From Tribonema minus (Eukaryota; Sar; Xanthophyceae; Tribonematales; Tribonemataceae), in NCBI GenBank assembly GCA_017506865.1, contig JAFCMP010000514.1, positions 186,001 through 250,000 of the forward strand: DNA of 64,000 nucleotides, read 5' to 3'. Positions 9,110 through 58,086 of this stretch are shown piece after piece; position 1 is the first letter of the stretch; each line of letters starts with the position of its first letter. The translations under genes and the position numbers were made by a program. The notes beneath the pieces are model-generated. The model searched no databases, was not told the DNA's origin, and was given only the letters and a program-made list of their open reading frames with translations.

Positions 9110-11167
9110 TTACTGCTGGGCACTGTGTGCAGCATCTCTGTCATCTTCGCCTATTGAGAGCGTTGGAGCAGGTGCAGACCGCTCAGCATCAACTTCAACA
9201 TCCGCTTTGCCGCGACCGCTGCTGCACGCAGGCGAGCTAATATATATACCAACAGGCACTTGGCAGGCTGCCGCGTCGTGGCAGTCGGGGACACCGCGCT
9301 CGCTCGGCATCTTGTGGAAGGATGACGCCATGAGGCACCCCCCCAGCTGGGGGTAGAAGTGCTCCACAACCGGAAACAGAACCAGCAGCAGCATGCTGAT
9401 AATGAGCAGTGCGCTCGTCACATCCTGTGCGGTCTGGCTCATGTAGTCCACCCGCGCCAGGTAGAGCACGAGCGTGGTGAAGAAGATGACGGCGGCGCTG
9501 TAAGTAGAAAGGCGACGCTCCACACCTGACTGGTGTGGCTGCACGTACAGGTATGCCACCATGAAGACCAAGGCGAAGCCGAAGGCCAGGGCCAGTTGAG
9601 CACTGGTGCCTGGCAGCATCAGGGCCTGAAAGGGGCACGCAGGCAGCACCGGGGTAGAGTTTGGGTTAGGTTACCCAGGGGGGGCGCAGTGGTGATGGCA
9701 GCTAAGCCAGCCAGCAAGAGATACCGCAGGTGCTGGCATGTCATAAATGTGGCGTGCAGTGCCAAGTGCACCTTTCGCGCGTGCTTGTCACTGTGGCTGG
9801 CATTGAAAGGTGGAATGGTGCTGCAGCTGAGTGCTGACAACTACTGAAACTGAGAAGCCCCACGAGACAATCAGATGTTACTGTAGTCTGTTGCACAATT
9901 ATGCAGACATGAGGACTTAATGTGAGTTGGTCGTTTGCACAAGCAGGCTTGGAGCAATGAATGATTAGAGGCACTCTACACCATGTGTGCTACGCACAAT
10001 GCTTCAGCAAACCACAGCCCTGACCATAACCGTGACCGTGATTTTCATGTACGCAGTTCTGAGCTCTGACAGAGAACGGCGCAATCTCGTGTAGGATTAG
10101 CACGGGAGTTTGGAAGTAACAGGATAAGATTAGGGCCAGCACAAGGGCATGGTCGGACTATGTACTTGTGACCTGACGGCATCTTCGTACATGCATGTCT
10201 GCTGAGCATCGACACCAATCAAACGTCTCAATAATACAATTGCTCACCAGCAGACCAGCCAGTAGCAGGCGGCGTACGCACTCCACCAGCTCCCACCACG
10301 GCGCAGCGCAGTGATACGAGTCCCAAAGAAACGGTCCGGGCGCGCGCGCCTGCGCTGCTGCCACTGGGTCAACTGCGCTCGCGAATGAGTCTAGTGCTTC
10401 CGCCTTGAGCGCTGCCACACGCTGCTTCCACAGCAGCACGGCGAACAGCGCAGGGACACCGATGGGGTAGACCAACACCATGACGCCTGCATAGGCGACG
10501 TAGGCAGTGTGCGTGGGCGTGCCGCACTCAATGCTGTAGTCAGCGCGCAGGTAGCTCTTGCCGGTGCCGTCGAGACGGTCGCAGGGGAACACCTGCAGCA
10601 CTGTTGTGGACACGGATGTGAAGACCAGAAACAGGAAGGCGAGGGCCATGTCGACATTGCATGCGTGCAGCGCTCGCAGCCAGCTGTGCGCAGGCAGCAT
10701 GGAGTAGCGCTTGAGCCGCAGCAGCAGGCGCGGCGCAAAGAGCAGGGGCAGCAGCGCCAGCGGTGCCGCGGTGCGGACGACGAGCTCGCCGTAGAAGTTG
10801 AAGTTTGTCGCGCAGCGCAGCAAGTTGAAGTCGAGGTTGACCCAGCCCACGACGCCCAGGAACGTCACCAGTTGCCGCGGGACGACGCTGCCCGTTGCGC
10901 TTATGGCCTGCGTGAGAATCTGCAGTGTGATCACTGGCGTGCGCAGGCTTGCAGAAACTGCCAGTACCAGCTGCGCCGCGCGGCCGTGAGTCATGGCCAG
11001 CGCTTTCTCGCTGTGCCGCGCCATCGACACCGATGCCCAGGCGACCACCATCAGTGCCAGCAGGGCCAGCACGGTGAGTAGGAGCGTCACCACTTCCAGT
11101 CCTCCGTGACAGTTGAGGCACTGGTAGCCGGGTGCTGCAGCGTAGCCGTCGGCGCAGACTGCGCAGT
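9110..11167 (-). other. Gene A: C-terminal membrane domain (last two exons)
   Basis: Exons 11167-10248 and 9625-9110, joined in phase 0 (LLAGLLV + ALMLPGTSAQ). After the last cysteines (QCLNC) come hydrophobic segments starting VVTLLLTVLALLALMVVAWA, then LALLPLLFAPRLLL, MALAFLFLVFTSVSTTVLQ, AYVAYAGVMVLVYPIGVPAL, the WWELVECVRRLLLAGLL pair, LALAFGFALVFMVAYLYV, AAVIFFTTLVLYL and LLIISMLLLVLFPVV. That makes about eight to nine spans. Between spans lie the family-typical LRADYSIECGTPTH loop and the WDSYHCAAPWWELVE motif. The layout resembles the TRP-like membrane ends of other protist beta-helix proteins. The tail of about 60 residues is acidic and hydrophilic, probably cytosolic. Confidence 0.8.
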
Positions 11168-14100
11168 CTGCGGTGCACGTGCGGTGGCGGCAAAGGCAGC
11201 AAGCAAGCGCAAGGGCAGTCGTGAGTAAAACGCCTGCATGGGCGTGGGCGTGTACAGGCACCTGAGCGTTGATGCAAGCAGTAGGACTGCCATGCGCCTT
11301 GAGTGCTCATGAGCAAAGTACTCTTGTGTGACAGTGGAGAGCTTAATGTGACTGACTCTGCCCAACGCGTAGTGTAGTGTGCTGGCCATCTTTCACGTCT
11401 GCTCGCCAGCGTGTGTGTGGCGTGTACAGGTAGGTGCCTGAGCATCTGATGGAGGAGCGTGACCCTGACAGTTGACAATTGGGCTGAGCATGATAGGCGC
11501 GTTGTGTGACATCAATCTGGTGTATACACCGTGTATTACTGTCAGAACCAGTGTTAGCGCTGTTGCGGGCGTTGCTACAGGTAAGCTTGACCTGTGCATT
11601 ACCGGGCACCCACGACCTCAACTGTAGCATGAATCAACAGTAGCACCTGTGATCATGTCATCACCATGCTCTGAGCGTACTGTTGTGGTTGTGCACTTCA
11701 TGATTTGTGATTGTGCCATTCATGATTGGTGTTGGTTATGGACTTGAATCCATGCGTGCTTGCGGGCCTCAGCACATGACGCTGAAAAAGGTACGCTTCA
11801 AAGTTCAAGTCATGTATTCAACACAACAGCAATACCACTTTAAACCCAAGAACGAGGCTCAAATGCAAATTTCACAAAAGCAATGAAGGGGCAACCATGT
11901 GCGGCATGGGAGCAATAAGATTTTGCGCGTTGTCAGACAATCTGCTGCACAGTATCACCATGAATCTGGTGTCAATCCGCATGAGATCGACGATGACGAT
12001 CATTGCATGACGCCATCAAGCTCTGTTCATCAAACATTGCGAATGCAACTTGTGAACACCACGTTCATTTCAAACGCCTTCTGTGCATCAGGCAACAAGT
12101 TTCCATCCCAGCACTCAAGGATTCATTTCTGTTGGTCAAAGTGCCAGCATTAGCTTGCGACATCGTCTAACGAAACATGTCTGCGGCACTGTAACTGCCA
12201 CACTCACAGGGCCCTTGGTAACCTTCAGCGCAGTACTGGTCAGGCTCAGCCGTCGCCATTCCGCCATCACATGCATCGGACCTCCAGCATGCCCTGCAGT
12301 GCACAAATGGTGATACAAACACATGAGTCACTCTTGACTCGAGAGTCTCGAGCCATGCCAGCAAGCTCATTCATGTGCGGTGGCAACAGAGAACTTGTGA
12401 CGCATTTACTCGTAACACAATATAGAAGTATGATGACTTAATGTAAGACTGCTGAGACATGATTCCGGGATTAAAGAAGCATGGTCCACAGCTAACCCTA
12501 GTCTCACTTTGCAGCCCTTGCCCTAGGCCAGCCTCAAATGGTGCGCACCCAGAAAAGCTCTGCACACACACTACATGGGGTTAGCGTTTGTCACTGTTGC
12601 AAGTGATGCACGCCATGTTATGACAAATCTTTTGCAAGCGCCACGCACTACAGAATGAACGCAAGATGCTTGATAAGAACATTGAGTCAGCAAGGATGTA
12701 CTCTCAACCAAGATTGCTCACTATGCTGCCGGGGAAACACTGCCACACTCTTGTGAGGAGTGGGGCACCCTTATACTTACTACTACTTGAAGTACACTTC
12801 AAGTGTGCACTTGCATACATGCACACATGAGACAGGACACCCGCGCACTAACCTGATGTCTGTCTGTGTGAGTGTCTCTCTCCAGTAGCCAAGACCCAGA
12901 GTCATGGTTTCCACCGTCTCGCCATAGGTCAAACAGGTGGACTCGGGAGCGTTGCACATGCCGCACGCGTTGCCGTTGATGTACTGGCCGGTGGCGCAGC
13001 ACTCCCTGCGGGCGGGCAGTCAAGCAGTGCTCAGTAAGGACACTCCCTCAGTGTACCTTTTATGGCGTCACACTCCGCAACTGTGGTCCGGGGGGGGGGC
13101 AGGGGGGGTGGATGCAACAAGGAAGTATATGATCACGTACTCGATAACATGCACTTTGTGACACATGCTGTCCTCGACCACGGTTGCGAGGTACTGGTAG
13201 TTTATCCACGACTGGAACAGACAAGTTGCAGTTCTGCAGCAATGACGAGTTGGTGACTCATATCCTGCAGCAATATGCCACTGTGACTGCTATTTGAGGG
13301 CTGTATGCCTCGACCGTAATCTGTCAAGTTAAAGTACACCGCGTGTTTGTTCCCATGCCTGGATTCCGGCTATTGTGACGATTGACAATTAGCGTTGAGA
13401 TTAGGCCAACCCTCAATGAAGCACACTTAAACTAGGGTTAGGCCAAAGCTGAACCTGCACCCGCGGGCATCGCCGAATGTAGCACAATCGGTAGCAGCGG
13501 GCGCCATTTCACATCTACTGTGCGTGAGTATCGTTACATGCACCTCATCTATCAGACCATGCGTCACGCCACCCAATGCACGAACACTAAAGCGGCGTAT
13601 CTCTTGCAGACGCAGCGAACTTCACAACGATGCACAGTTTTGCCATACAAACGGCGTTATTCTAGTGGTGATGAATCACCAATTATTTAAGTGGTGACGA
13701 CTCAACGGCTGCACATCAGTACTCTACAAACAAAGCAACTTTGCAGCTTCAAGTTACAGTTGCCATCACACAACATACCCATACATCAGCCACGTACATG
13801 ATATACACACGCACCAGTAGGTATCCCACCCCGTCGTGACATCGACGCACGACACTCCCGCAAGCGCGCCCTGGCCACCAGCATAGCAGCAGCTGGCGGC
13901 GTTGCCCTCAAACACCACTGCATCATCAACTTCAACTCCCAAGCGCGCGCCATCGCCAGACTGCAGAATGGCCCCGCCGCCGCCGCGCACTGCCACATTG
14001 CCATCAAACGATGTGCTGAGCATGCGGTGCGCAACGCCCAGGGGTAAGTTCTGCAGGTACATGCCGCCGCCACCAGTGCTGGCTGTGTTGTTGGCGAATT

Positions 14101-17100
14101 CGCACTGGTTGAGGTGCGTGGGTCCCGTGGTGCTGAGCACTGCCGCGCCACCGCCGAGCGATGCTGCACAGGCAATTTGCCAATTAGATGCAAGTCAGGC
14201 ATCAGCGGATATGCAAAGGACTGCGGCCAGCACCAAGAGCACCCCTTCAAGCGTCATTCCCTTCGAGCGTCATTCACTTCAAGTTGAAGTACCACATCAT
14301 ATGCAGGTGGTTTCTAATGCATATGACACAGATCGCAGCGTGCGCACACGTGATGCAGTTCAGATAGCTCTGCAGCCAGCATCAAGAGCACCATTGAGGC
14401 ACCATGTCATCTTCAACTTCAAGTACCTTGTTGCTGAACGAATGGTCACCGTGCACGAGACATAATGTAGCTCAGATTGCAACCAGCGTGCTTACCACAC
14501 TGCAGAAGACAAGGTGCACGACGGTGCTTCTCAGTGGTGGCAACTGAACCAGGAAATATAGCCTATGTTCTGAAGCACAATGTTGATGACCGTACAGGTG
14601 TGGCGGGTGCTGCTGGCTGTAGCCAGGTGCCGGCACTCGGCACTTGTGACAACACAGACTCTGAGTCTCCGGCTGAGTCAGGGTCTCCACCAACATGGGC
14701 AGAGTGATTTCAATCAAGCGCACATTGATGAAACCTCATGCGTTCGCAAAGCATCGTGTAGGAGAGCAGCTGTATAGCTCGTACCCGAGTTGCCGACAAT
14801 GCTTGTGGACTCCATGGCTATGCCATAGGTGCCCTCTTTGAGCGCGATTGCACCACCCAAGCCGGTGGCTGCGCAGCGTTGCAGCACCGTCAGCACACAG
14901 AATGCATTCATGAGCGTCATCACACGTCTGGTGGCATGCACATTTGTGCAGGAACTGCACCTGAGGCAGGCGCGCAACAGCCAGAGAGCAGACACGCTTG
15001 CAGCTGGACACTTGATGTCCTGTGAACTTCGAATGCTCGACGCTTGATGTTACGACAGACATATGCCTGTGGGGCGCAGAACCTCCATCAAAAAGGAGAA
15101 GCACTTAGGTTACTACAGACGATAGTGTGTTCACATAGTGCTTCAGAGCTTTCAAAGCTAGCAAACGACATCCAATGGCATGCCAAGTTCAATGGGCCAG
15201 CCTACAGAGTGCAGTATGCTCGGTGCCAGTCATCCATAGAATCTTGCAACTGCCATCTGGTGCCAGCTGTTGGTGAACCTTGTACTTCAAAGTATCTACT
15301 TGAAGTTGTTCAGGTCGGTGTTTCAGTGGCGAGTAGACAGCATTACATCTTTGCGCTTGTACAGCTGAAGTTCAAGTTGAAGTGTTGAGGCAGCACTCAC
15401 CAGTGTTGCTTGTTATGGTGGAAGTGGTGATGGAAAGGGCGCACTTCTTGCGGCTGCAGCTGATTCCGCCGCCATTTCCGCCAGCTGATTCAAGACACAA
15501 GTCGGCAATCAGCGGACAATCAGAATGTGCTGCAATGTTGCATGTGTGATCGCCAACAGGTGCATTGACAGACGCTGAGCTCTTTACATGTGCTTGAAGA
15601 CAATAGTAGTTGAAGTATAGTTCGTGAGTTATACACTCTCAGTTCTACAAGCAAGTCCCACTGTGGGTATTCCTGAACAAAGCGGGGTGGCGCATACTTT
15701 AAGTCAATAGTAGTTGAAGTATAGTTGTACAGAAAAAGAGACACACACAAGCTGCAGTGCTCATGCAGTATTCAAGTGTCGCTTCAGACTCGGGCAATGT
15801 CGTTGCCAGCACTACGGAGTACCTGAATTTCCTGCCACCACAGAGTCTGTGATGGTGACCGTTGCTCCGACTGACGCACTGAGCCCACCGCCACTGCTGG
15901 TCGCTGTTACAAAGCATGCAAAGTGGCCAAGCAAGGAATTAGGCTATGTGGCATGATGATACCAGGAAGGGGTCTTGTTAGTGCTGATTGCGCAAGTATC
16001 AGCTGTGGTCGGTGCTCTGTGAAAGGAGACAACTGCTTTGCGTGATTTCAAAGCTCCTTAAAAGGACCACAGGCTCCTATCTGATTGTGCCAGGGACGTT
16101 TGTGTGTGTGTGAATGTGGGTGATACATACAATTTGTACTGGACTATCATCATGTGCCATGTACATCTACTTTTGCATGAATCTGATAGGGTGTATTTAG
16201 ATATACTTCAAGTAATACCTGCACAGTACTTCAAACTATTGGATTACAACAATTAGGAGTGGCCTGCACATGTGCTTTGCATCAGCGCTGTGCAAATAAC
16301 GACAAGCGTAATATCAACGTGCTCCTCAGTCATGTTTGCCTCGGGGCACATGCATAGTGCTAATAACGTACTTTGCAAATACGTTGATTTAACAATGTTG
16401 CTTGACACCCATGTGTTTGAATTATTGACGGCTGCAACACTCAAATGTCACGTCGGTCTACCGTTGGATTCACTCTAGAGTTATTGCTTGAGGGTCGCCA
16501 ACTTGAGGGGCCAGACACTGACCAACATCATACTCACAAGGTCATTGCATGGCAGCACACCTTAGAACACGCATTGTGAGGGGAACAGCAGCACGGCGCA
16601 GCACCTGCGCAGCATTATCCTGCTTCGAAGCATGCTGTAGGGCATTGAAAGCACAGCCTGCATATGGTGCAGTTTCCACACCACTGTCAGCATAGCACAG
16701 ATCCATCCGGAGCACATGATCATTCGCACCTGTGTTCGCAGAGATGTAAGAGCTGTCAATGGTCACATGGCTCTGCTCGAAGTATGCACCTCCGCCACCG
16801 CCTTCGTTTTCGCTGTCCAGTGCTGCACCGTGGCAACATGTGCAAGGCGCCATTTCAGCACCAGGTGCGCAATGAAGCGCACCACTACCACAGCACAACA
16901 GCAGGTATGCACATGTGTGTGCTGAGAATGTATAGTCTTTACATATACAAAATGCTGCCAAATCTGCCAGCGACAGTGTCAGCCCGCCATTTGCTGCACT
17001 TTGCTGCAGAGCTGAATGCTGGTGGTTGCTGTCATTACCAGACACTAAGCATCCAGACATGCCATTTCAATGTCATTTACTTTAGCCACATGGGTTCTAA

Positions 17101-19637
17101 GAAAAACATGTTTTGGCCACTGGGCCTAGGTGTGTTGACTGCAGAACCATAAACTGGAACCTGCAGCAGACTAACAAGGCAGTCGTGCTTTGCCGCGTTG
17201 AAAAAAACGACATGTTCCAATACAATGGCCCTGCACCGTGTTTCCTACTTCACCCACATTTTCTTTGATACAAATGGGCCTGAGATCCCTACATTATGTA
17301 CCTGAGTTCCCTGTGATGTTGGTGGCAAATACGCTGCCATTACCCCCAAATGCGGAGAGTGCCCCGCCACTGCCACCTGAGCAGAATGGTCACATAGCAA
17401 TGAACATACTATTAGGGGCATCTTTACATGCACACGATGTACCGTCTTGTCTGAATTTAACGACACTGTCCGACTCATGCGTCAGTCTCAACTAAGCCAC
17501 CCAAATCATAGGTCACCCTTTTAACTGGCCATCTCAAATTGTCCGCAGCTGCTGCTCAACATCTTGAAGTACGACATGTCGAGGTAGAACTTTCAGCCAG
17601 CCAGCACCACGACCAGCAGCATGAGCACTGCAGAAGTGCAACAGGATACCAACGTAGTTGAACGCTATCAGCAAAAAGGGAATTTTGCACGCTGCCTGTT
17701 TGCTGAGCACTGCAGCCCGAGGTTCGACTGCACCAGCCGCAGCAGCTTGTGGCCCTGCATGCAGTAGATGTGACTGTGGGTTGTCTGCAAAAGTAAGATA
17801 CCGTCTGTAAAGTTCGAACATTGAAGCTGCCCTGTATAACATTGTGAGACTTTGATGATTGGTGCACGAGCGCTTCATGCGCACCTGTGTTGTTGGCAAA
17901 CACTGAAGACAAAACAGTCCACTGAGCCTCTTGCGCATACGTGGCCCCGCCAACGCCTGCACAGCAGCAGCAGCATGTGCAGAGTGCACAAGTGTGAGGC
18001 GGAGTATGGCAGTCAAGGGTACCACAAGCAAGGCAGAGCTTGCATGTGCAGCAGGCACCATTTTGTTACAAGATGGCTGTCCATACTTGAAATGTGCTTT
18101 TTGAGTGTATTTGAGGCAACATGAATACATAATACCGACTTAAATGTAATGTCTTGGTTAGTATGGTACATGTCAGACTGCTGGGTAGTGGTGATTATCA
18201 TATGAGCTGCGTCATGATCAGACATGAATCAGACTAGTAATCACACCAGAGCACATCTAAATGCAAGTACACATCTGAGACACTGTTGCAAAGTGTACTG
18301 GTTTGTGGAACTGTTATTCTTAGGCAACGATGTTTCACACATCATCGCAGGCTTGTTCACTTCGTGGTACTCAGCACACAGATACCTTCCAAAGTGTTTT
18401 GCGCATCACATCAAACTCAATTGGTGCTACCAAATACTTCAGAAGTATATGAAAGCGGTTTTCAGAGAGAGTACGCGCTCTTGGTGGTTTTACAACCCCT
18501 GTCAGTGCATGCAAGATCGTGGTTGCCATTAGCACATGAAGCAGCGCCTGCCGATGGAGGTCATGAAATAAATGACAGCCGTCCTGGACAAATCAGTTTA
18601 CAAGGGAGTATTTGACGCACTGCAAGGGGTGTGTTGGCACACTGCACGCAGGAGCTCTCGCTTACGGTCAACATGTACGTCATATGGACATGATCTCAGT
18701 TCCAACTGTACACAATGATGTGAAACACGTCAATAAAACAGACAGTGACTGACAGTTACACAGGTGAGAGATGAATGGCCCGGCTTACTAAAGCTACTGT
18801 TTCTTGGTTACTGGACTGAGCAAGCGCATGTTAACTGCCGTTCAGGCAACTGCACCCACCAGCGGAATTCCCGCTGAACGTGCATGTTGAAGTGCTGCAA
18901 GTTGATCCCTGATGGCACGCCAGAGCACCGCCGGCTCCTATGCCTGTGAGACGCACAAATACAAAGTAAACTCATTTTTTGAGGTTGAGCATGCTCCCAG
19001 TGCTGAGTATCAGCAGGTAACTTCATTATGACTACTCGTAATAGCACTGTGCTCATTTGGGGTGCCTGACGGGAAGAACAGCCGCCGCTGTGACAGCTGG
19101 GCTTAGGGGCACTGATGTGCCTGCTATTGGGCACGCAATGCTGGGTCCAGTCACAACATTAGTTGTCGTGATGCATGTCACCATCATCTTGACATGCCAT
19201 GTCATCATCTGCCTTGAGCACGAGCGCTACTCACTATGTGGGCTGGGCGCAAGCACTTTGCAAGAGTGTCTACGGCAAAGCACTTTACAGAATTGTCTAT
19301 GGCAAAGTGGCATATTGCTCCATGCGTCAAGGTAAATAGAAAGACAGCAGAGCCATGTGGTTCTTGATTTTATTTGGTACTAGATAGATTTAGTGAATGC
19401 AGAAGAAACACTTACTACGTTCACAAGCAGGCAGGCTTCAGGTTTTTTTTGCTGTCCATAGCAGCGGTGCGACTCACCTGAGTTGTCTGAAAATGTGGTG
19501 TCGAATATGGTGCAGTTGCCTGAGGCGCACATTATTGCACCTCCCATGTAACCTGCGCAGACATAATGTATCAAGAGGGTCAATAAACAGACGAGCAATC
19601 GAAGCAAAGCGCTGAATTGCAGTAAATGCGATGAAAT

Positions 19638-19679
<42 letters not shown>

Positions 19680-20393
19680 TGAAGTCTTACAATACACTGG
19701 ACTCGACCTTTTGATCATGCCCTTGGTCATCGAAACAATGTAGCAGTTGCTGCATCGCATCACATACGCAAGCATTGTACACGAGAGGCCAAGCCTCGTC
19801 TTCAAGAATTGGGCAACATCTGCAAATCTGCAGTCAGCTGTGAACTTAATTTTCGAGTGGCACGAACCAAGCCATGCTGCGAAGAACCAGAAATGCATGC
19901 ACACACTTCTACCTGAATTGTTGCGAAACTCGCAGGAGTTGACGCTGAGCTGCGCTGCATCCACAAAGATGGCGCCACCCTTGCCAATCGTCTCTGGATC
20001 TTCATGTACTGAGGAGCCATCTTCCAATATCACGTTTTCTAGCTCCAGGGATGCCTGCGACAGAATGCGGAAAAGCTGGGCTGCACCGGTACCCCTCACA
20101 ACTGCCCCCTGCATGCCCTGGACCCTCAGCTGAGTGCCTTGTTCCACGACTAGTGGCGACGCGAGTGTCGCTGCTCCCTTCCAGATGACCAGGATGTTGT
20201 TGCCCTTGCAGTCCATCGCTGCACGCACTGCTGCTACATCCTCATCCGTCTGAATGACAAGGACAGTGGAGCTGCTGCGTGGGCAGGCGGCAAGTGGGGC
20301 CGGAGCTGCGACAGCATCGCGAATAAATACCATTGCACACAGCGCCATGAGTACGACAGCACGAATCCATTGGTGGCGACCCACGCGGTTCAT
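9110..20393 (-). CDS. Gene A: beta-helix (Pmp-type repeat) / Cys-rich / polytopic membrane protein
   Basis: Fourteen exons, 5' to 3': 20393-19913, 19552-19478, 18943-18860, 17956-17885, 17376-17302, 16822-16730, 15903-15823, 15484-15401, 14868-14785, 14163-13815, 13005-12853, 12293-12208, 11167-10248, 9625-9110 (1050 aa). The Met at 20393 starts a signal peptide (hydrophobic VVLMALCAMVF, then AVAAPAP); an in-frame Met at 20501 adds 36 residues. Residues 30-160 begin a beta helix (GGAIFVDAAQLSVNSCEFRN). The next eight exons each encode one rung with GGA[ILV] and FxxN-like motifs, as in Chlam_PMP repeats, and all have phase-1 introns on both sides. The 349-nt exon carries three more rungs. Residues about 493-585 are Cys-rich (GYWRE, CDGG, YCAEGYQGPYCAVCADGY). 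The rest is a membrane domain. Known family: large surface proteins of algae and other protists, function unproven; adhesion or sensing is inference. A possible ninth rung near 17590-17760 looks frame-damaged and is left out. Confidence 0.8.
19640..19677 (+). repeat. (GT)n microsatellite
   Basis: Nineteen GT dinucleotides in a row inside intron 2 of gene A, about 90 bases from the second exon. Confidence 0.95.
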
Positions 20394-20501
20394 CTCTGAG
20401 GTTCGCTTGTGCACGATGGATGCACCACGACGATTGCTGCCCTTTGCGTGCTGCTTCAGCTGTTCTAATGCACGGGTTGTGAAGATATTTGCGGATGTCA
20501 C

Positions 20502-47000: not shown

Positions 47001-50000
47001 CGCAACAGTGGCCAAAACACATTACAACTCTTTTGCAACCCATTTGACTGCACTCAAATGTACATACCTGTCTGATTGTTACCAATGAAGATTGATGACA
47101 AGAGTGTTCCATTAGATGACTGCGCCAAGATGGCACCACCGTCTGCAAATAGTTACAAGCCAGGAAATCGTCTACCGTGAGGTTGAATTTACCACCATGC
47201 ACGAATTCTGAACATTTTGAGCATGCGTATCGTGCACCACGTCAGCTTATTGCATACGCTATCCACCAATGGCAGCCAACCACCAATGAGTCATGTCCGT
47301 ACTGGGGAGTGTTGATTCGAGGAAACTTTTGAAGACGATCTTGCATGACACATTCCAGGCTCTCCAACTGCTGCAGAGGTCAACTTTGCTGCAGCTTGTC
47401 CGCTAGACCCTACTTCGCAGAGGTGGCAGCAATTGTGGGAGATTCACCGCTACCCTTGCAGATTTATTTACAGCGGTACCCGTAAACAAGCTTGCGCCGA
47501 GCAGTGGATGTCAAATGTCGTTTTACACTCATTGACTTGACTCAAATGCCCTCAAAGCCGGCGGGGCAAGCCAGCTTCAACGCACCTACATGCTGATCAC
47601 AAGCGCAATATTGCAAGCTATTGCAATGCGCAATACCAAAAGCAGAGCGCAGAAATTGATGCTGCTACACTGTGACAGCCCAGCCTTCCCGACCCCCGTT
47701 TCAAGTCATGCCAGGGACAGGTCAAAAAGCGCTGCAGTGGGCACCTGTGTACAGCTTTGCAATTGTCCGTCGCAACCCCCCCCACCCCTCCCACCCCCCT
47801 CCCCCGCGCCTGCCCGCCCCCCAAAAGCCTGGTTACAAAGTGTGTCGAAGTAATCTGCTTTCATACTGCGCACAATGACCGCATGATAATTTGTGGGCAA
47901 GTAAATTATTTGCCAAATTGAATGGGCAGAAGTCCGGAATGCACATACCTCCTGCGGTGTTGTTAGTAAAGCGTGATGCGGAAAGGATCCACCGTGTATT
48001 ATTAAAAAAGACTGCTCCACCTCCTCCATCTTTGCCAGAATCCTTCAAAGTGCCTGCACAGCAGCAGTGCGCAGTATCGCAAGCAAAACACTGTCAGACT
48101 CACATTGTGCAGTAGCTGCCTCATCAAAGCTCAATGCATTGCATACCTTTCAGGAAGTACACTGCCAGTGGTGGAAGATGTTTTCAAAAACTTTCACAAA
48201 TTGTGAGATTTCCTGCCGACTTTGTGTTTAGAGTCTTTGGCGATTTGGACACAACATGGAGCCAAAACCAGGAACCACAGTGGGCACAGAAGAGGGGAGG
48301 CGGTGGTGTAGGCGCACAGTTCACAAGCTGCACAGTCTCAGCCTAAGACAGACATGCAGCAGTCAGCAACCAATGCGGACCAGGCTGTCGCTTTGCAGCC
48401 ACGCGATGCGTTCCCCGTGATACACTCAATTCGCAGCTGCAGTGCCTGTTGTGCTGATGCACAGTGCTCATTCAGCGTTGTTGACACTGCACTGTGTTTA
48501 TTCAGCATCGATTCTGTGCGCCTCGCATGACATTACATCAAGCAGCCCACACTGAGGTAGTTAAATCAACATCATTACATATCAGTGAAAACCCCGGAGT
48601 CCAGAGACTCTGAGCCAGATCTCTGATGTCTGCCAGTACTACTAGCCTCAGGATCCTGGTATTGTATTTCAGAAGTAATAGTCATGCGCAGTTGCTGCAG
48701 CCAACTGGGCTGCGTGCACCCCAAGTTTTTTTACTGGCCCTGCTACGCACGGCGCACTGGCAGGTAAGCAGTCATGCATACACTTTGATGCGTTCCGCCA
48801 CTTGGTAGGCCAGGGAGTCTGCCATTCTCACATCAGTCAGGAAATGACACAAGGCAAAACATGCATGCAATATGTAGGGTTACCCCACTCCGTATAATCG
48901 CAGTACTACGTATACGTATAAATACGCTTCTACGGCGTATAACTATCAGGACTTCTACACCGAGCGTATAATGGCAGTTGTGGGCTGTCATGCGCTCCAA
49001 AGGCTCGCTATTGCCACAAGACAAATACTTTCATGTACATCAGCCGAAGCCTCACGCCAGTGCAACGGTATCAGCAGCTTAGGCACATACGACTGGCAGG
49101 GAGCCGCAGCCCGAGCCTGGTTGACTTCACTTCCGAAGTCAGCCCGTGCTGCGTGAGATGCAAGTTGTCGACGAGTGCTTTCAGCTTTATTGAGTGCACG
49201 TTGAGCAAGAAGTTCTTGTCCGCTTCCGATCCAAGTGCGAGAGTTTGATTGCGTCTGTCGGACACCGGCTGTGCTGGACTTAAGGAGATACCAACAGCAG
49301 CAGCAGCAACTCCCGACCTGCCCGCCATGATTTGGGGGATTCAACACCAGCAGGAGTAGCATCAGCTGAAGCAGCAGCACCGGCCGTGCAGCGGTCCGCA
49401 CGCACTCGAGTAGCTCTGCAGGGCGTGATCGCTTGTGTTGTGACCGCCCCACAGCAGCCCATTTTCCAGCAGGATTTTGCGCTCGACACCTACAATGCAG
49501 GGGTCCCTCTGCACTTGACCCGGCACCCTGCTCTCAATAAGGCGGGGCTGTTGTGAGAGGGACCCAGCCTGCACCAGTGTCCGGTCTGCTGCTCAAGCGT
49601 GTCACCAACACCGTCAAAATTGGCCGCATTCAGGGAGCTGGCCTTGGCTATTTGAATTCAGCTGAGTGCACGTTGAGCAAGAAGTTCTTGTCCGCTTCCG
49701 ATCCAAGTGCGAGAGTTTGATCGCGTCTGTCGGACACCGGCTGTGCTGGACTTAAGGAGATACCAACAGCAGCAGCAGCAACTCCCGACCTGCCCGCCAT
49801 GATTTGGGAAATTCAACACCAGCAGGAGTAGCATCAGCTGAAGCAGCAGCACCGGCCGTGCAGCGGTCCGCACGCACTCGAGTAGCTCTGCAGGGCGTAA
49901 TCGCTTGTGTTGTGACCGCCCCACAGCAGCCCATTTTCCAGCAGGACTTTGCGCTCAACACCTACAATGCAGGGGTCCCTCTGCACTTGACCCGGCACCC

Positions 50001-53000
50001 TGCTCTCAATAAGGCGTGGCTGTTGTGAGAGGGACCCAGCCTGCACCGGTGTCCGGTCTGCTGCTCAAGCGTGTTACCAACACCGTCAAAATTGGCCGCA
50101 TTCAGGGAGCTGGCCTTGGCTATTTGAAATCAGCTTGTGAATGATGGCTGGACGCGTCGCGCAGCAGCAGGTGGCGATCCGCTTTTCAGCATCATAGCAT
50201 TGCTGCCAAACGGAGGTAGCATCTTCCACAGTGTACGCAATGCGTATGCAGTCGTCAAGGATGCCACAAGGCTAAAGGCAGCTAATAGTATGTGGAATGG
50301 GCAATGGAGCTCGCTGACAACCAATTATATACCATGAATATAATATTATGATCACCTATGAGTAAGGCTTGTGCAGAGATGGCCATTCTACGCTGTTATA
50401 CGCTTTATACGCCATTATACGCATATAATTATACAAGCATATAATTGGAAAACTTGTACGCTCTGGGGTAACCCTAGCAATATGTGAAATGACTCAGAAA
50501 TCCCGCATTTTCGTTGAGAGCACAACTTTGACACACGGTGTTTGCTTGTAAAAAGCTCCCGCTGCCCCCCCTCAGGCTGACAGTATGAGCACAGCAGCTT
50601 TGGTACACGGTTCTGAGCCAAGCACTGTGCAAGCGGAAGTACAATCACAGGCGAGTAAGAACATGTTATGTGTTGCTGGGCATTGCCGGGCGCAGACACC
50701 GTGATTGCAGCCTCAATCGCTGACATGACAGCTGCGATCATGTAAAACCTGTGCAAAGGCGGGCGTTGCCTTGTGACTCAGATGTAACATAATGTTAAAC
50801 AGTTCATGAACGGCGTTTACACACCTGTCATGTTGTTTCTGGTGAACACTGATGACGACACCTTGACCGATGGCGTCGAGCCATCGTAATGACCTGTCGC
50901 AAAGATGGCTCCTCCGCCACCTGCACAAAAACCATAATGTATTTCATTGCAACCACAGTTGTGCACTGTCAGTGAGTCGTATGCACCATGGTACCATGCC
51001 GCGCCATCAAAACAGCACGCAGCGTCATGAACACATCTACTACTCAGAAACAATGCCTGTGACCTTGAAAGCACTCCTCAGTGTTTATGAGTCACTTTGC
51101 ATCTCACTGTTGAACTTTGTGAGTGATTGCAACCTCAGAGTCGCTGCCATTGCAGGCGCGCACTACCGTTGAAGTAGACGCTGACAACTTCCATGTTCCA
51201 ACAACGCACAACATGATGCTGCTGACTGCTCGCACCATGGTGCTCACTAACAACTGAATCGTATAACGTTTGACTAGATTTTGCCAGGTGCCAACAGTCA
51301 CTTTAACTGCAGATTCTGAACCTGTCCGACAGTATTTTATTGATGATGTGATGGGTACTTCTGAATCAAAGTATTCCGGCAGGGGTTCCTGCCTTGAAGA
51401 TCTTGTCGAGAAGTTCGTCCTCGGCACAATTGCGCCGTAGTACGTTGACCCTTATGACATGTAATTGTTATTTGCAAAGTAATACTTTACTGTTTTTGAT
51501 GATCACCACATCAATCACGCAGGCCTGCAATTGGAGATGCTTTCATAAAGCTTTGAAGAGTTGCCACATTGGATGCTTCTGGTTACTGACAGCCTGAGGC
51601 AGCTTCAAGATAGCTGATAAATTAAACCTTAACGCAAACTTATGCTTGCAGTGCCTTAGGTCCTCAAGACAGACTGGCAGGTCCAGCTCACTCAGTCAAA
51701 CAGCCCAAACGCAATTTTAGTTGAACCTTCAAGCTGAAACTTTGAGTCATTCAAAAATTTTGAAAGTCTTTAAGCCCGAATGCAACCATATTCATTGGCA
51801 ATACGATTCTCCCAACATGTCATATAGGTTGGGGCTGACTTGGTCTATTCACTTGTTGAGACTGATGTTGATCCTGATGTGTAGTCATACATGAAGCTCA
51901 AGGGCACCAATTTGAAATGAACTTCAACTTTCAAACTGGGTTCAACAGGTTAACAATACTAGTAGCGATCTCTGAGTCACTGATCAGCGTGCGGCAACCA
52001 CAGCTCAACTTTCCTCCAGCTCCACAAAAATAATATCGGCAGGGGCAGCTACTAGTAAGTGACTCAGACGCCAACAAGTTAAACCTGCCAAGGTGCTGCT
52101 GATTGATGACGTAAACATGAACAGCTTGACAATGTAGGCCTTGACAGCAGCATGCCATGTTCTAGATTGCATTTGGGCCGAGACGAAGCCTGCTTCCTCA
52201 CTCACGCTCACCAGACTCTGTGTACTACTAGGATGATGTGCAGGGCCAGCGAATGAAATCATTCCACTGTGACAGCGTGCCTGCTCCTGGACCAGAAGCC
52301 TCAAGCCTTCTCAGAGTGGTGTGATCAACGCACGCGGTTTACATGCCCGCCAGCTTGTTGTGACAACATTGCGCTTTGGTGCAGATTGCTGGATCTGACT
52401 ACGGTAACCGTAGTGACTGCCAAACCTGATCAGCACTAAGTCTTCCAAATTGATTGCGCTGAATCAGATCCTGCCAGTGGTCTTGAATGAGTTTCTCACT
52501 TTCGGTTTGGACGACTCTACAATCATTATAGACATGGTGCTTGAAAATGATCGCCTGGAGAGGCATTGCCCGGGCTCGCTTCGCTCAGTACCGTAGTGAA
52601 TGAAGGCGAAAAAAACATAATTTTCATGTGAAATGCCTTTAGGTATAAGTTAGAGCCGTCCTGCGCACCGCCAGGCTCTTCTTGCGTGAATATGGGTGAA
52701 AAACACGTGAGGATTGCAGATGGATTCACAGCGCTCTTGATAGGGCCGTAAGTAACAATCAAGTGAATGAATCCTAAATTGACAATCAGGCCGCGCCAAA
52801 CTTGTGATGAGGTGGCACACAGGCGTCACTCAGCACGCGGAGACATGGCAAGAGTGGGCTGTCACAGTTCAGCGCCATGACTACTAGGCTTCGAGCTGCC
52901 GCTGCCTGCGCCACGAGCGGTACGCTGAAGGGCTGTACCTGTGCTGGTCGCAAGCGCTGCAATTGGCGTCATGTTTGCCACGAATGTGAAACTGGAGCGC

Positions 53001-56000: not shown

Positions 56001-58086
56001 CTCCAGATTCTGGTAGTGCCAGACTGTCAGTGAGTGCCACTGATAGAGACTTGTTTATGCATTAGCCCAGCCCTGTGCCCACTAGGATCATGAGAAACCT
56101 ATCAGTGGCAATGACAGGCGCAAAACCTGAGACTTCCAGTACTACTGGGCAATCATTGCTCTTTTTAGCCGAGTACATTGCATAACGTACGATCTTACTA
56201 ATTTATTTAAAAGGAGGCATGGCATTTGAGTTCACTCACATACAGACACTGTTGCTGATTCAAGTTCAACTGGGAACGCCTAGCAGTTGGCAGCAGTTAC
56301 TGCAGTTTCAAATTCAGTTGGCATCGTCACCGGGTGGTACTAATGCTGTAACTGATACAGTAACTGTCACTGTGACAGCTGCTGCAGTCACTCAGCACTG
56401 TGCAGCACCAACTGCTGTGACCAGCACTCTTTCACGCAGCTGCTGACAGTAACAATCACCAGTCACTCACGTCTCAGTGACCAGCACACTTGGCCAATTT
56501 GCAAGTGATTTGATGCTGGATCCTGTTTTGCATTTCAAGTTGAGGAACAGTTGAGAAATCCTGCGTTTTGTGACTAAAAATCTGCAGCTGCTGCTGCAAT
56601 CTTATATCGAAATATGACATCACGTAGCATCCGGTTTGTTACAATACTCTGAGACTAATACAAAATTTCCTGAACAGGATAATCATTGTAAGTGACATTA
56701 GTTCAATAAGTTGCATAAAACTCCGAGGTACCTTAAGGTTGGTAAAGCGCGCTCACTCAGCAGCCTAAGGCTAGTGCAACACGCGAAACACCACGTTGAA
56801 CACGCATGTGTAACATAACCAATTGTTCCTGCATGGCTGAAAAAAAAGAACTGTTTAACGTGACAGTAACCTGTTACACAAACAATTTGTTCAGCAAATG
56901 GCGTGAAAACGACCCCGGGCCAGATGCAAAAGAGCGACGCCAAGGCAATACAAAGGAGCAGCTGCTGTTCTTGTGTCATGCCAAATGTGAAGTGCGCCAT
57001 AATGATTGCATTCACGGAAATCGCACGATTCAAATGATCCACATCAAGTTCAAAATATGTGTCAGGACTTGGGTAACTTCAACAGACCAACTTTTAATTG
57101 ATGCTCAGCATTTCAACCTTTATTATCCATTGATGTTCAACACTTCTTGAACAGCTGAAACTACAATATCAATATGCGCTTAGCCTACCTCTGCAAGCCG
57201 ACCACAGTGACAGTGACTGCAGGAAGAAGTTATCACAATGGTGACGTCAATATCATAGAGGTACCTGAACTACGCTGGTGGGGCTGATGAGATGATTATT
57301 GTTGGCTGGAATCAATGTGTTCAAGTTGGCATCCGGCCCGGGGGTCGCTTTCATGCCAATGAAGGCCATTGGCAAGTTGAACCTGCCAGTGTTTGCCTGC
57401 TATTAATCATGTGTATATATTCAAAAGTGACATGCAATTTACCAGTAACCAAGAGTTAAACCTGGTAACGTTGAAACCTCTGGCTGGTTCAGGACCAGGC
57501 CCTTTGAGCATGAGGGACCAGTACAACAACTGACAGTGTTTACAACGACTGTTTCAGGTTAGCACTCAGTAACTTACTATTACAGCTACTTGGCAATTTG
57601 CAGTATGTAGGAAGGTCAAACCTTCTTACCTCTGTTGTTGCGGAATACGCAGCCATAGACTCTGAGCTGGGCAGACGTGACTGTGATGGCGCCATTCAAA
57701 GCATCCCGCAGCGTCAGATTCACCAGCTGCAGCGATGCCCCGTCCTTGACAACAAATAATCGGCGACAGACACCCCCTTTGCGACCCACAACAGCCGGCT
57801 TCAAAGGGTCCGCCTGCAGCACCCTCAGCTGGGCCCCTTCTTCCACAACTATCGGCTCCTCAAGTGCGACGGCTCCTTCCCAGATAGCCAGGATCTCCTT
57901 CTCACTCCAGCAACTCACTGCATTGCGCAAGGCCGGCAAGTCGTCCGCAGATTGTATGTACAACGGCCGTTCAAGTTGTAAGACGGCTGCAGGGCATGGA
58001 ACGCGCGCACCGGAGGTACTTATCAGGGCTTTGCTGCACCAGAGCGCGAGAGCACCCAGCGACAAAGCTGCAGTCGCGCTGCCCAT
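23959..58086 (-). CDS. Gene B: long beta-helix (Pmp-type repeat) / Cys-rich / polytopic membrane protein
   Basis: Paralogue of gene A spread over 34 kb. Nineteen exons, 5' to 3': 58086-57630, 53206-53087, 50920-50825, 48053-47949, 47142-47068, 46414-46322, 35207-35130, 33690-33598, 32755-32678, 32160-32068, 31518-31435, 30694-30614, 30099-30016, 29123-29040, 28646-28298, 27258-27106, 26707-26622, 26023-25101, 24426-23959 (1199 aa). All phases agree. The Met at 58086 begins a signal peptide (GSATAALSLGALALWC); an in-frame Met at 58236 is an alternative. Thirteen small exons, all phase 1-1, each encode one rung: for example GGAIFATG...SSVFTRNN, GGAVFFNN...SRFTNN, GGAIHVD, GGGVYLEQ. The exon at 33690 may instead start at 33666. 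The Cys-rich part has GYW-like SYWRE and YCAKGYEGPYCAACASGY. Introns hold a 9.7-kb LINE and a hAT relic. Role unknown; a surface receptor or adhesin is inference. Confidence 0.8.
28298..28646 (-). other. Gene B exon matching the 349-nt exon of gene A
   Basis: This exon has exactly the length of gene A's 14163-13815, enters in phase 1 and leaves in phase 2. It encodes three rungs (FANN, GGGAIYFEELDYAL, FTGN, GGGGAILEYGD) and then the linker ACCYAGGEKTLEGVSCMDVTTGW that leads into the Cys-rich exons. It is the best block for aligning the two paralogues. Confidence 0.85.
29241..29350 (+). repeat. Tandem doublet, period 55
   Basis: Two near-identical units beginning AAGTACATGA and ending CGCAGTTTTAGAT(A/G)AC lie in the gene B intron between exons 30099-30016 and 29123-29040. 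Confidence 0.85.
32966..33190 (+). repeat. Imperfect tandem repeat around GCATGATGAAGGCCATC
   Basis: Two clear units of about 85-95 bases (GAGCATGATGAAGGCCATCGG... GCACGTAGGAACA; then AAGCATGATGAAGGCCATCTG... GCACGTGGGAACA) and a partial third (CACTGGGCACC...GGAGCAGCC), inside a gene B intron. Confidence 0.75.
35304..35388 (+). repeat. Tandem doublet, period about 44
   Basis: GGGTCCTGGAAACTGTGCC... and GGGTCCTAGAAAGTGTGCC..., both followed by TTAGACTTGACTGT or CTAGACTTGACTGT, just below the gene B exon 35207-35130. Confidence 0.8.
36560..36571 (+). repeat. Target-site duplication of the LINE, left copy
   Basis: GTAGTCTAGTAC, repeated exactly at 46262-46273. The two copies bound the retrotransposon precisely. 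Confidence 0.9.
36650..45466 (-). CDS. LINE polyprotein: Pro repeat, Zn-finger-like, OTU protease, reverse transcriptase, RLE
   Basis: One open frame of 2938 codons. Residues 59-120 are about ten PPPIPG repeats. Residues 305-521 hold two copies of an Arg/Ala-rich unit with TVPVPMEVGEP. Cysteine pairs near 565 (CRMC) and 620-660 (CDGC, CADC) look like zinc fingers. An OTU-like cysteine protease begins at GNGNCLIHTAL (C1087) and its likely His is in VGHFELLV (H1275); the usual DGNC reads NGNC. The reverse transcriptase covers about 1900-2250: GLDGLRYEHLL, RPIACSSVWRRLLG, motif A QLDCENAFNSVD (D2063), motif B CQQGDPLGPLYFA, motif C FLDD (2169-2172). The C-terminus has CPWRC...H...C (about 2715), then RADTVID (D2779) and IVLDTSV (D2801), typical of the restriction-like endonuclease. 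I see no AP endonuclease and no RNase H. A larger single ORF than most LINEs. The Met at 45466 is the first in frame. Confidence 0.9.
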   Translation of the reverse strand: MALHWLTSPTSHGEGSPLKRKRGQRNHGLNTGLWWWQVKAARQSDTRRRRRHGVGRWVRLAIPPPPPIPGPPPIPGPPPIPGPPPIPGPPPIPGPPPIPGPPPIPGPPPIPGPPPIPGPPPPQLMAQSSRPRPMPEVPVCSQVAELCRSMRRLHLSSADSDEPQGSGSHAHVKKRRRHLTSPGASNHCNRGCSQTKRPRHQPASDSEAQAASLREALPPTAIIVLSLVVLPPPAASTRRRATLPPDPPVATTPMPKRRSRRKTPLVTAATAAPAAGPAPANQVVAQPRTTVTAAAACGRKVTSDLTAAATPRAADMVPKPPAAAAASDGQRGAAASRRGRRRGANAGPPLGRLGSIGSINRPESPCGKLSALAKAVTMTVPVPMEVGEPTSGPAGHQRRITSRPSQPASSGASPQWHPGPQPMEVTAAATPCAADMVTTAPAAAAAPGGERGAAAPRRGRRRASAQSTGSVTRPEPQSGGALAKPVTVTMPVPMEVGEPGPAGHQRQITSRFLQPAGSGASLSGGSVTSDGNSRNGHPISGITARTDLAPAKIHAANRKVNIPGLDCRMCDKFIVRANPRALDKNCPAAHACAHQRTRHTGKGKQFAELHVQLFLDHRPICGGLEQVCDGCGNLFIRRTAASATTPSGDLGALDQCDVWRCADCLAGPVAATACTLSGCDRASGHDHIADIHTRPTTCAAAAGGAAVGGGNSLKPTAALLAAASKCGPIRKILGCEHLGVDPRQAHASTLDGVAVAPLPRLTRSSTMGVLPGESRASDSGATMSSNDRVPSTPGSAAAAVAAGAQSSECPRDPTGSHWQGLLGAAGALARRVRALALAPNRARVTVLCAWPTGTKLEPGRTSRRLHAPATQTLLGRTPCAPLVNQMHDLTVTFSLLSLREEGNDLAAVFDQLSLREPVVARSPRQPAGKHGESDVTQAGDNSTHATMTETASVTAMVASGKRSRRRGKHRRRTQERQAQCDNSPAPLGQLAPATTPPRGGASAPSAPISGPAKVTTVTVATRIPSTVCHTVTVEEQQDALAKATNYGFSTWHTGLQALHKQALGENTATLARGGELRPVSNVGNGNCLIHTALHGIGSVAVEHGLPAPALVIAMREALLDGMVAYVTQGAGKQGASMSSMRQLTAHAAAQPACTREQFDTYGTRARCLAIEYGTNETDSKDSGHTLLLQRLQEEGVWGRPLGLSVWAIVAAVYAVSVTVWQAKPQATGSTQKSTGLVLAQLMGLPAVFAPATPAQPDCHLDVLWTPPGLYTNVGHFELLVAPAAAPPLPTTMTASATTQADSTHITAPSRTQPRTALQLPQQPEPLRCPLCTLAFWQLGQKEDSKQRGKLSAASRMAPVVAHFNGGSCTRSMLNPGASTSHCQQNPAAAYAKGIRQQVDHDPSGDRAPSGSSTCSTGAHHAKHVQEMSTMYGCTAEDFLRAVRKLSACTGACGLVHMSASAGQRQCALTSPCHTCRRNGSAPTRARPAVPPGQSEGGGAGSDGAAAAAGAAAATPPKLPAVPASGAANSKSSKKRPAATATGAQRRRRTAAAAAPPSSAGSRTQSDSLRLQDSSPPRGTAVGWADMDVDPPDDAASPPPPTTTTSGRPSKPQARASLAWDLSTPSVVHALDQTNEADLLLLRFTTTANPFRTQLQCTQWARLVEHATRLLADATDSAREAARVRLHHGAGAFAHQVSQTLVQRGYRLLHLLAAMAFGRQPEGTGMPPAARLAALLSGDFAELLRKTLSAAAALRAPKPNNAAMASAQTNFDADWTEADSRQQTACAALSGKRRGVGLAAARLEAREACAPADEVTAQVLAAKHPETGTRPGVVDTPMEQVRGLVRDARRHCLHSAGVATTTGPAGSGSPVFESGQAHDHSDRPEDAASAAGRRLEVEAADILSTLSAAGAGKAGGLDGLRYEHLLMAAGPGAPVKAATRPVSSASPGLAGDSESDVMEPAFAHHLAKVFTTLLVEPELLPEQSQRLLRAAALSGIGQKRRPIACSSVWRRLLGSTAARSVKGKISGLLASMSQFGVGYRSGVEHVAARARVWHELYGTTIQLDCENAFNSVDRAAIVRGLMLFCPELLPHFESVYCGDTAPEMRVEVNGEARIICSHLGCQQGDPLGPLYFAVAAAFLLFYPDGVNATPGSMPAYGHSTAEPPAPHCAFLDDLNVLQAAYFDDAAAAGVAEVIRRLAAGGLRVRPDKSLAIAMRGTVFDEAARARLRALDIPFVDTTMPESSQGFTSVGVPVGHPAYVHAAMSKHLVDAGTWRLSWQLAGMARHHLQAAQFILRRSLTKRMGFLARVVDTALSETWLHAFDGFCAWTLERMLHLHGCSTAAAMKSHLLAACTAGDNEEASSGSVLVLPRLGPPELTDIAVPLRASRLPERRGGLGMPLLGLLAPAAYTAQACTTLRPAIIHATVAAGALRLGTDEHGAVTWFAQHSCAIREDQGLPPIIEAVRRSTRALTADGGEKSRTAVAEQLPASLLRWAADTTAAASTLPTAVQAIYAATAVTETVTTEPAPHTHGIVPGAEAAAAAATVPGPQAAAAAAPSTPAKTQTSAEESSCSGGQEDDDDDWEAYADEICRKVVPRRRRGHFTHGLQAGLSNVLRRQYEDCLVEDLEAASAGAVGKPTQAAPIGDSRDTSRRRQQASARVLAQLRSQRASGAMAWMSVPPTANDRPGAAPMSSMAAATMILIAIFIDGWGIQGEVCPWRCSDVSPTSTHAISCPSQHIRGHNATHTAQKRCLQRILRQHHVSIVRNEDASVFKVPGYRADTVIDPGCLHFSSAYRNKGIVLDTSVRAPTASSNLTGRTNASNTDGYAAGVGEDAKVKHHTGTLTSSWAFVPFVQESYGRLGKQTSLFVKELAMHSALCSGGGKADVLRKAGLAKRQILIELSISLARELAERVMAYTRGARMLGCVAAPVSKLLGHSAD
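43904..44550 (-). repeat. Internal duplication in the LINE N-terminal region
   Basis: Two units (43904 to about 44205, and 44229 to about 44550; period about 325) encode the same order of motifs: AAATP.AADMV, GAA..RRGRRR, then PVPMEVGEP and AGHQR.ITSR. They are clearly similar but have drifted apart. Confidence 0.8.
45109..45290 (-). repeat. 18-bp tandem repeat coding for PPPIPG
   Basis: About ten units of an 18-base, G+C-rich sequence, each reading Pro-Pro-Pro-Ile-Pro-Gly in the LINE frame, with only synonymous differences between units. The flexible Pro-rich stretch lies close to the N-terminus. Confidence 0.9.
45498..45526 (+). repeat. A29 homopolymer (T29 on the LINE strand)
   Basis: Twenty-nine A residues on the + strand, 32 bases upstream of the LINE start codon on the coding strand. 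It lies inside the element as bounded by the target duplication, so it is not a poly(A) tail of this element. Confidence 0.95.
46262..46273 (+). repeat. Target-site duplication of the LINE, right copy
   Basis: GTAGTCTAGTAC, exact match to 36560-36571. It is 49 bases below the donor site of the gene B exon 46414-46322. Confidence 0.9.
48867..48874 (+). repeat. hAT target-site duplication, left copy
   Basis: GCAATATG directly before the left TIR; repeated exactly at 50477-50484. Eight bases is the hallmark length of the hAT superfamily. Confidence 0.9.
49191..50134 (+). repeat. 472-bp tandem duplication inside the hAT element
   Basis: Copies 49191-49662 and 49663-50134 are almost identical, differing at a handful of sites (for example GATTGCG/GATCGCG, TTTGGGGG/TTTGGGAA, TTGAATTC/TTGAAATC). 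Each contains a coding piece ending FALDTYNAGVPLHLTRHPA, or the FALNTYN variant, which resembles the hAT segment just before DUF659. Confidence 0.9.
50137..50337 (+). pseudogene. hAT transposase fragment (DUF659-like)
   Basis: A reading frame of 66 codons beginning MNDGWTRRAAAGGDPLFSI and continuing with PNGGSIFHSVRN and AVVKDATRLKAA. This fits the DUF659 start DGWT...P..NF...P.G.IFL.SVD.S..VKDA. The preceding hAT-like piece is in the duplicated arms. Frames are interrupted and the C-terminal dimerisation domain is absent, so this is a remnant of a plain DNA transposon. Confidence 0.7.
50477..50484 (+). repeat. hAT target-site duplication, right copy
   Basis: GCAATATG directly after the right TIR, matching 48867-48874. 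Confidence 0.9.
52700..53060 (+). repeat. Dispersed repeat, copy near gene B second exon
   Basis: This copy shares GCAGATGGATTCACAG, AGCGCCATGACTACTA, GGCTTCGAGCTGC, GCGCCACG and GCAAAACTGGCTG, in the same order, with 61046-61770. It is spread and diverged. One end runs up to the acceptor side of the gene B exon 53206-53087, so repeat DNA abuts coding DNA here. Confidence 0.6.
53207..57629. other. Gene B intron 1: A+T-rich, repeat-bearing
   Basis: This 4.4-kb first intron is visibly richer in A+T than the exons. It contains a 170-bp direct repeat pair (54479 and 55085), a (CAA)n run at 54716-54734, a stretch rich in CAGTCACTG-type words at 56350-56460, and a copy of a dispersed repeat also seen at 61090-61440. 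I see no further rung exon in either orientation. Confidence 0.5.
54479..55250 (+). repeat. Direct repeat pair of about 170 bp
   Basis: Units at 54479-54651 and 55085-55250 share, in order, GGCTATTTTCATTTACT, ACAACAGTTCAGAAGCTTAC, GTGAGTCAGACTTCAACTTG and AACACCCCAG. They are about 90% alike by eye, with small gaps, and lie 606 bases apart in gene B intron 1. No target duplication or coding content identifies the element. Confidence 0.8.

Follow-up and report, generated by a model that had tools for sequence, protein, structure and literature searches.

Phase 1-1 exon cassettes of one predicted beta-helix coil each in a family of putative surface proteins with Pmp-type repeats in Tribonema minus

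In animals, modules of class 1-1 are the rule in exon shuffling and, in the part of PMC8001218 cited here, such shuffling is described as restricted to Metazoa; the same part of that source notes that glycine is favoured at class 1-1 junctions and offers the glycine of the proto-splice site as a reason for phase 1. The plant LRR receptor kinases have 72-nt phase-2 exons encoding one LRR each, which are ascribed to exon duplication and shuffling in the cited section of PMC3050792. For the chlamydial Pmps, the cited portion of PMC11166332 gives the larger repeat as one coil of the beta-helix, with GGA following the FxxN motif after only 4-5 residues in 57% of the motifs (122/214). The family considered here joins the animal and the plant kind, in that a photosynthetic eukaryote has 1-1 modules of one coil each. 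Its cassettes share with the metazoan modules the phase-1 introns on both flanks; by contrast, the metazoan module is a self-folding extracellular domain while the algal one is a single predicted coil in a photosynthetic host, and the algal cassettes were examined within one family, whereas shuffling in the strict sense places a module in unrelated proteins. They share with the plant LRR kinases the short same-phase exons of one solenoid repeat each, but differ in being of phase 1 rather than phase 2, in encoding a Pmp rung rather than an LRR and in forming arrays of exon plus intron of about 250-290 bp. The likeness to the Chlamydia Pmp repeat (PF02415) is that the algal rungs too have GGA[ILV] and then FxxN and that the short gap from FxxN to GGA is where the introns of the cassettes are located, with the difference that the algal genes are eukaryotic and intron-split. 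Among the literature matches listed, which cover the field incompletely, no algal Pmp-type protein with one exon per rung was found.

The window, i.e., the whole 64-kb stretch of T. minus DNA that was analysed, carries two tandem paralogous genes on the minus strand, gene A (20393-9110) and gene B (58086-23959), with exon boundaries that are throughout predictions made from DNA alone. Joining the 14 exons of gene A gives a frame of 1050 codons without a stop, i.e., 1050 aa, the same length as in an earlier sequence-only reading of this DNA. Its exon 1 (19913-20393) contains the ATG, a signal peptide recognised by eye, the start of the repeat region and one rung (profile score 16.6 bits), and it stays open up to its phase-1 end at GTAGAA. 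Then follow eight single-rung cassettes (within 14785-19552), at 19552-19478, 18943-18860, 17956-17885, 17376-17302, 16822-16730, 15903-15823, 15484-15401 and 14868-14785, all with AG/GT sites, phase 1 at both ends and a continuous frame. The 3' part consists of a three-rung exon of 349 nt (13815-14163; phase 1 in, phase 2 out), two Cys-rich exons in continuous frame (13005-12853 and 12293-12208; phases 2-2 and 2-1), a membrane-domain exon (10248-11167) that lies in the joined frame and has matches genome-wide, and a last exon (9110-9625) entered in phase 0 and ending with the stop codon.

Gene B has the same layout, and its first 17 exons join into an open frame of 722 aa. Exon 1 (57630-58086) begins with ATG and ends in phase 1 at GTAAGA. 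The 14 single-rung cassettes (within 29040-54858), all of phase 1 at both ends and in continuous frame, are at 54858-54793, 53206-53087, 50920-50825, 48053-47949, 47142-47068, 46399-46322, 35207-35130, 33690-33598, 32755-32678, 32160-32068, 31518-31435, 30694-30614, 30093-30016 and 29123-29040, the acceptor of the seventh being AAG instead of CAG. The three-rung exon (28298-28646, again 349 nt) lies in the joined frame and the first Cys-rich exon (27106-27258) continues it. The exons 3' of the latter were placed via homology to gene A, partly by eye: the second Cys-rich exon (26622-26708) by eye from the gene A homologue, the membrane-domain exon (25101-26023) as homologous to that of gene A, with which it is 72% identical, and the last exon (23959-24426) with its start set by eye, from gene A homology, between GCAG and GCCCTGATA, within the stop-to-stop frame 23959-24645.

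Some other features of the window and the genome are noted. The 11.1-kb intron between cassettes 6 and 7 of gene B contains a reverse-transcriptase element (36568-45317) with an RVT_1 score of 29.0 bits, just below the cut-off of 29.6, and with an open frame of 2968 aa on the minus strand (36650-45556). Since two further copies are 100% identical to it over about 8.75 kb, the element moved very recently. The intron that separates cassettes 3 and 4 of gene B has a 472-bp unit twice in tandem (49191-50135), the two copies being 97% alike and having no cassette inside, and a 145-bp tandem repeat of 2.5 copies is present at 5490-5847. About 103 bp of a gene A intron (17440-17542) recur, whole or in part, at many genome sites with 74-100% identity, and are possibly a short mobile element. 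Elsewhere on the assembly contigs, eleven fragments of plastid psaA/psaB, at L047 and L048 (C168, C490) and nine other places, look like plastid DNA in the nucleus; one of them closely matches the PsaA chains of solved photosystems, and together they indicate a photosynthetic lineage.

The correspondence of exon and rung in genes A and B is close, with definite exceptions. The earlier reading, which had counted 8 and 13 cassettes and taken every internal rung as one exon, is right for the 8 of gene A (72-93 nt), whereas gene B has 14 (66-120 nt), the one at 54858-54793 being easy to overlook; and besides these 22 single-rung exons there are exceptions to one exon per repeat, namely in both genes the exon with three rungs and in gene A a rung within exon 1. 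As that reading had stated, phase-1 introns lie on both sides of the cassettes, which holds for 22/22, with 24/24 of the introns bounding cassettes in phase 1. The later introns of gene A are in phases 2, 2, 1 and 0, and thus phase 1 belongs to the cassette region and not to the gene as a whole. At all 24 cassette introns the junction codon starts with the final G of the exon and encodes G, A, D or V, which fits the proto-splice-site explanation as put forward in the cited part of PMC8001218. The motifs are looser than had been described: an early GG and a late [FILMV]xxN occur in 22/22, but the strict GGA[ILV] in 13/22 and the strict FxxN in 9/22. Over 108 family cassettes, the 22 of the window included, the late asparagine is 98% conserved, the GG of the paralogue cassettes being 100% by construction as they were selected with a GG-GC pattern.

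The phase was then tallied for 192 rung motifs from A, B and 11 paralogue stretches, with the splice sites scored blind to phase, where the tallies do not count independent events because the copies in an array are related. Donors scoring above 2 on a generic matrix are found for 116 of the 192 motifs, and 115 of the 116 are in phase 1. The acceptors are less clean than the donors: the best generic acceptor is in phase 1 for 143 of 185 motifs and, among 66 cases from paralogues, the nearest CAG for 59. If both splice sites are required to have a high generic score, 14 of 192 motifs are left, with 12 of class (1,1) and 2 of class (2,1). Genome-wide, the pattern TGCAG-N5-GGNGGNGCNAT, which has the phase-1 spacing, gives 206 exact matches (among the first 100 or so of them, which were listed, many in near-identical copies on C201, C209 and C269), as compared with 28 for N4 and 23 for N6; the reversed acceptor-to-GG patterns give 1, 2 and 1 matches. 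By these phase tests a chance origin of the exon-rung layout is rejected.

On the joined exons the Pfam profile Chlam_PMP (PF02415, cut-off 20.6 bits) scores 59.1 bits for gene A and 58.3 bits for gene B. On the DNA of the three-rung exons it scores 24.5 bits for A (13817-14164) and 22.1 bits for B (28297-28644). The profile runs from FxxN to GGA and hence across the exon junctions. Against the unspliced 158-Mb genome it gives no match at E <= 0.001, perhaps because it crosses the junctions, or perhaps because so short a profile might miss that threshold. From these likenesses we infer that a cassette would form one coil of a parallel beta-helix and that the family proteins would be exposed at the surface. 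The AlphaFold models are of low confidence, with pLDDT 32.1 for the fused-rung exon (two sequences) and 44.6 for the membrane exon, the model of which is helical. By contrast with the chlamydial autotransporters, the C-terminal part of A and B resembles a helical membrane domain, as judged by eye and from this low-confidence model, and at E <= 0.05 neither the C-terminal exons of A nor the membrane exon of B matched an autotransporter family of Pfam. Solved structures include no relative of the membrane domain at E <= 1, and over 21 family members it has no Pfam match better than E 0.008; none of the candidates in viral (15) and GTDB (19) contigs was confirmed.

The membrane exon of gene A has 119 matches in the 158-Mb genome (554 contigs), of which 45 span at least 200 of the 343 residues, A, B and six near-identical copies being included. 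Paralogues were sampled in the 10 kb upstream of ten matches, in six further stretches and in one upstream extension. Plain single-rung cassettes are present in 8 of the 10 paralogues sampled first, while in the 10 kb upstream at L033 and L035 there are few, if any. Judging from these comparisons, A and B are two diverged genes of a large family, the products of which are predicted to be secreted and anchored in the membrane and to comprise a signal peptide, Pmp-type repeats, a part encoded by Cys-rich exons and a multi-pass membrane domain. It is noted that one family member is present in copies that are 99.3-100% identical and partly inverted, at L043-L046 (C201, C209, C298) and on C269, with one cassette of L043 having a stop that is absent from L044; for the gene A region, a search of the assembly gave no further copy.

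Several paralogues (L031, L032, L037, L038, L041 and the C201 group) have tandem units of about 250-290 bp, each made up of one rung exon and one intron. The introns of such arrays align about as well as the exons, and in L037 neighbouring units align over the full length of both; there, the closest pairs of units are two pairs, each two units apart, which looks like the outcome of a two-unit block duplication. When units are compared over the family, with those scoring below 18 or lying too near an end dropped, the best match lies within the same gene for 66 of 133 units, as compared with an average of 13.2 and a maximum of 24 in 200 label shuffles. A recent duplication of cassettes in A or B themselves is rejected, the best DNA matches being 0.63-0.68 for the 15 of 22 units compared (7/22 were left out by the score limit of 18 or the flank limit). 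With no close copy for any of these 15 comparable cassettes, A and B appear to be old members of the family. A few cassettes in the arrays are broken, their donor being lost, their frame shifted or a stop present; of these, the single cassettes at L037 6291 and 6827 and at L044 2555 are frameshifted or have lost the donor.

The number of cassettes can differ between close relatives. Two neighbouring genes on C223 (within 365924-395907) have, from exon 1 up to the 3' part that they share, 23 cassettes in L049 plus L038 and 10 in L041, as counted by hits above 25 bits of a profile partly trained on these loci; weaker hits, of 10-16 bits within the fused exon and of 11 bits at L041 7127, are excluded; by a simple rule, both splice sites are present in 19/26 and 9/13 of all hits, respectively. 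The 3' part of the pair is 97.7% identical over 3.6 kb, with a pS of 0.012 in the membrane exon. L041 contains a 2.7-kb stretch without recognisable cassettes, where an insertion or a loss may have been involved. The identity of 97.7% could reflect gene conversion, which makes the age of the number change uncertain. In L036 and L042 the number is the same, with 12 and 12 collinear cassettes, and it is also the same in four copies on C201, C209 and C298, which are collinear at 99.7-99.9% identity with at most 13 gap positions. Thus, the length variation anticipated from the sequence-only reading is supported among paralogues, by the tandem units and by 23 versus 10, while two other close comparisons are unchanged. 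For its suggestion of cassette swapping there is a hint: L036 and L049 plus L038 have one pair of cassettes with 90% identity, the other L036 cassettes having best matches of 65-75% there, which hints at exchange of cassettes between genes.

The reading that we prefer, and regard as probable, is that the family is built from one-coil 1-1 units of exon plus intron, in arrays that are lengthened and shortened in frame upstream of a 3' anchor under selection. In this reading each cassette would be a symmetric 1-1 exon for one coil of a parallel beta-helix, with the introns sitting in the short turn between the xxxN of one coil and the GG of the next. The evolutionary unit would be exon plus intron, and by unequal exchange or tandem duplication in the array whole units would be gained or lost in frame and in register, with the new copies then diverging. 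The 3' anchor, comprising the fused rungs, the Cys-rich part and the membrane domain, would be held by selection. Unequal exchange as the mechanism, and a role of the variable coils in binding or adhesion, are what the pattern suggests.

The rates of substitution bear on this scheme as follows. In the membrane exon of 11 genes dN/dS is 0.15-0.38 in 54 of 55 pairs, with 0.58 in the closest pair, and in the fused-rung exon it is 0.21-0.31 in six pairs of four genes, two others having been missed by the search pattern. For the 12 orthologous cassettes of L036 and L042 it is 0.17 (bootstrap 0.03-0.66), and for the six best-matching cassettes of L038 and L041 it is 0.65 (interval 0.35-1.39). The total divergence of the L036/L042 cassettes (14/887) is not significantly lower than that of the rest (64/3102; p = 0.41). 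Among duplicated rungs within arrays dN/dS is 0.47-1.09 overall. One calculation gave 1.09 for L032 and 0.84 for L037; from JC values, using only pairs with alignable introns in seven stretches, it is about 0.47 in L031, 0.97 in L032, 0.77 in L037, 0.78 in L038, 0.57 in L041, 0.71 in L036 (two pairs) and 0.67 in L044. L032 and L037, whose introns have diverged least, have some of the highest values, and more diverged arrays go down to 0.47. The simplest reading would be constraint on settled cassettes and a freer divergence of fresh duplicates, where the within-array values do not separate relaxed from positive selection.

These values are also what leaves room for the view that the arrays are a by-product, in which one ancestral one-rung exon was copied and the copy number then drifted neutrally, giving length without function. 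A within-array dN/dS of 0.47-1.09 fits relaxed constraint as well as diversification, and the comparable one-repeat exons of the plant LRR kinases are ascribed to exon duplication in the cited section of PMC3050792. On this view, however, it would not be expected that the late asparagine is conserved to 98% over 108 cassettes or that the orthologous cassettes appear constrained, as the dN/dS of 0.17, with its wide interval, indicates. We thus give it a real chance, while leaning against it.

Another proposal, the combinatorial splicing of the sequence-only reading, is that regulated exon skipping lets one gene give many isoforms with differing number and set of coils. As 22/22 cassettes of A and B are 1-1, any skip would keep the frame, and the few defective cassettes of paralogues would be tolerated under skipping. 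But the symmetric phases are equally expected from exon duplication, and early decay or assembly error explains the broken cassettes equally well, so that we consider regulated skipping unlikely. That the arrays are remnants of pseudogenes or artefacts of the assembly, as might be supposed from the broken cassettes, the 99.3-100% identical and partly inverted copies on C201, C209, C269 and C298 and the very recent element in the gene B intron, is highly improbable given the dN/dS of the membrane exon (0.15-0.38 in 54 of 55 pairs), the open frames in A and B and the differences between units along an array, which an assembly duplication would not give.

Returning to the reading of one-coil units gained and lost above a selected anchor, a bolder extension can be formulated, which we regard as rather doubtful. 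It is that the length and the face of the beta-helix in dozens of surface receptors are remodelled via gain, loss and exchange of exon plus intron, making an active non-animal 1-1 system that would be quick enough to set neighbouring genes, and perhaps strains, apart from each other, possibly with skipping too, and that would serve self/non-self or partner recognition.

What the family offers is a natural, testable case where the intron position appears matched to the smallest structural unit of a solenoid, which could let recombination change the protein coil by coil. It is located outside the animals, to which the shuffling of 1-1 modules is described as confined in the cited part of PMC8001218. 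As the arrays of the family are of differing age, the gain, loss and divergence of coils would be measurable.
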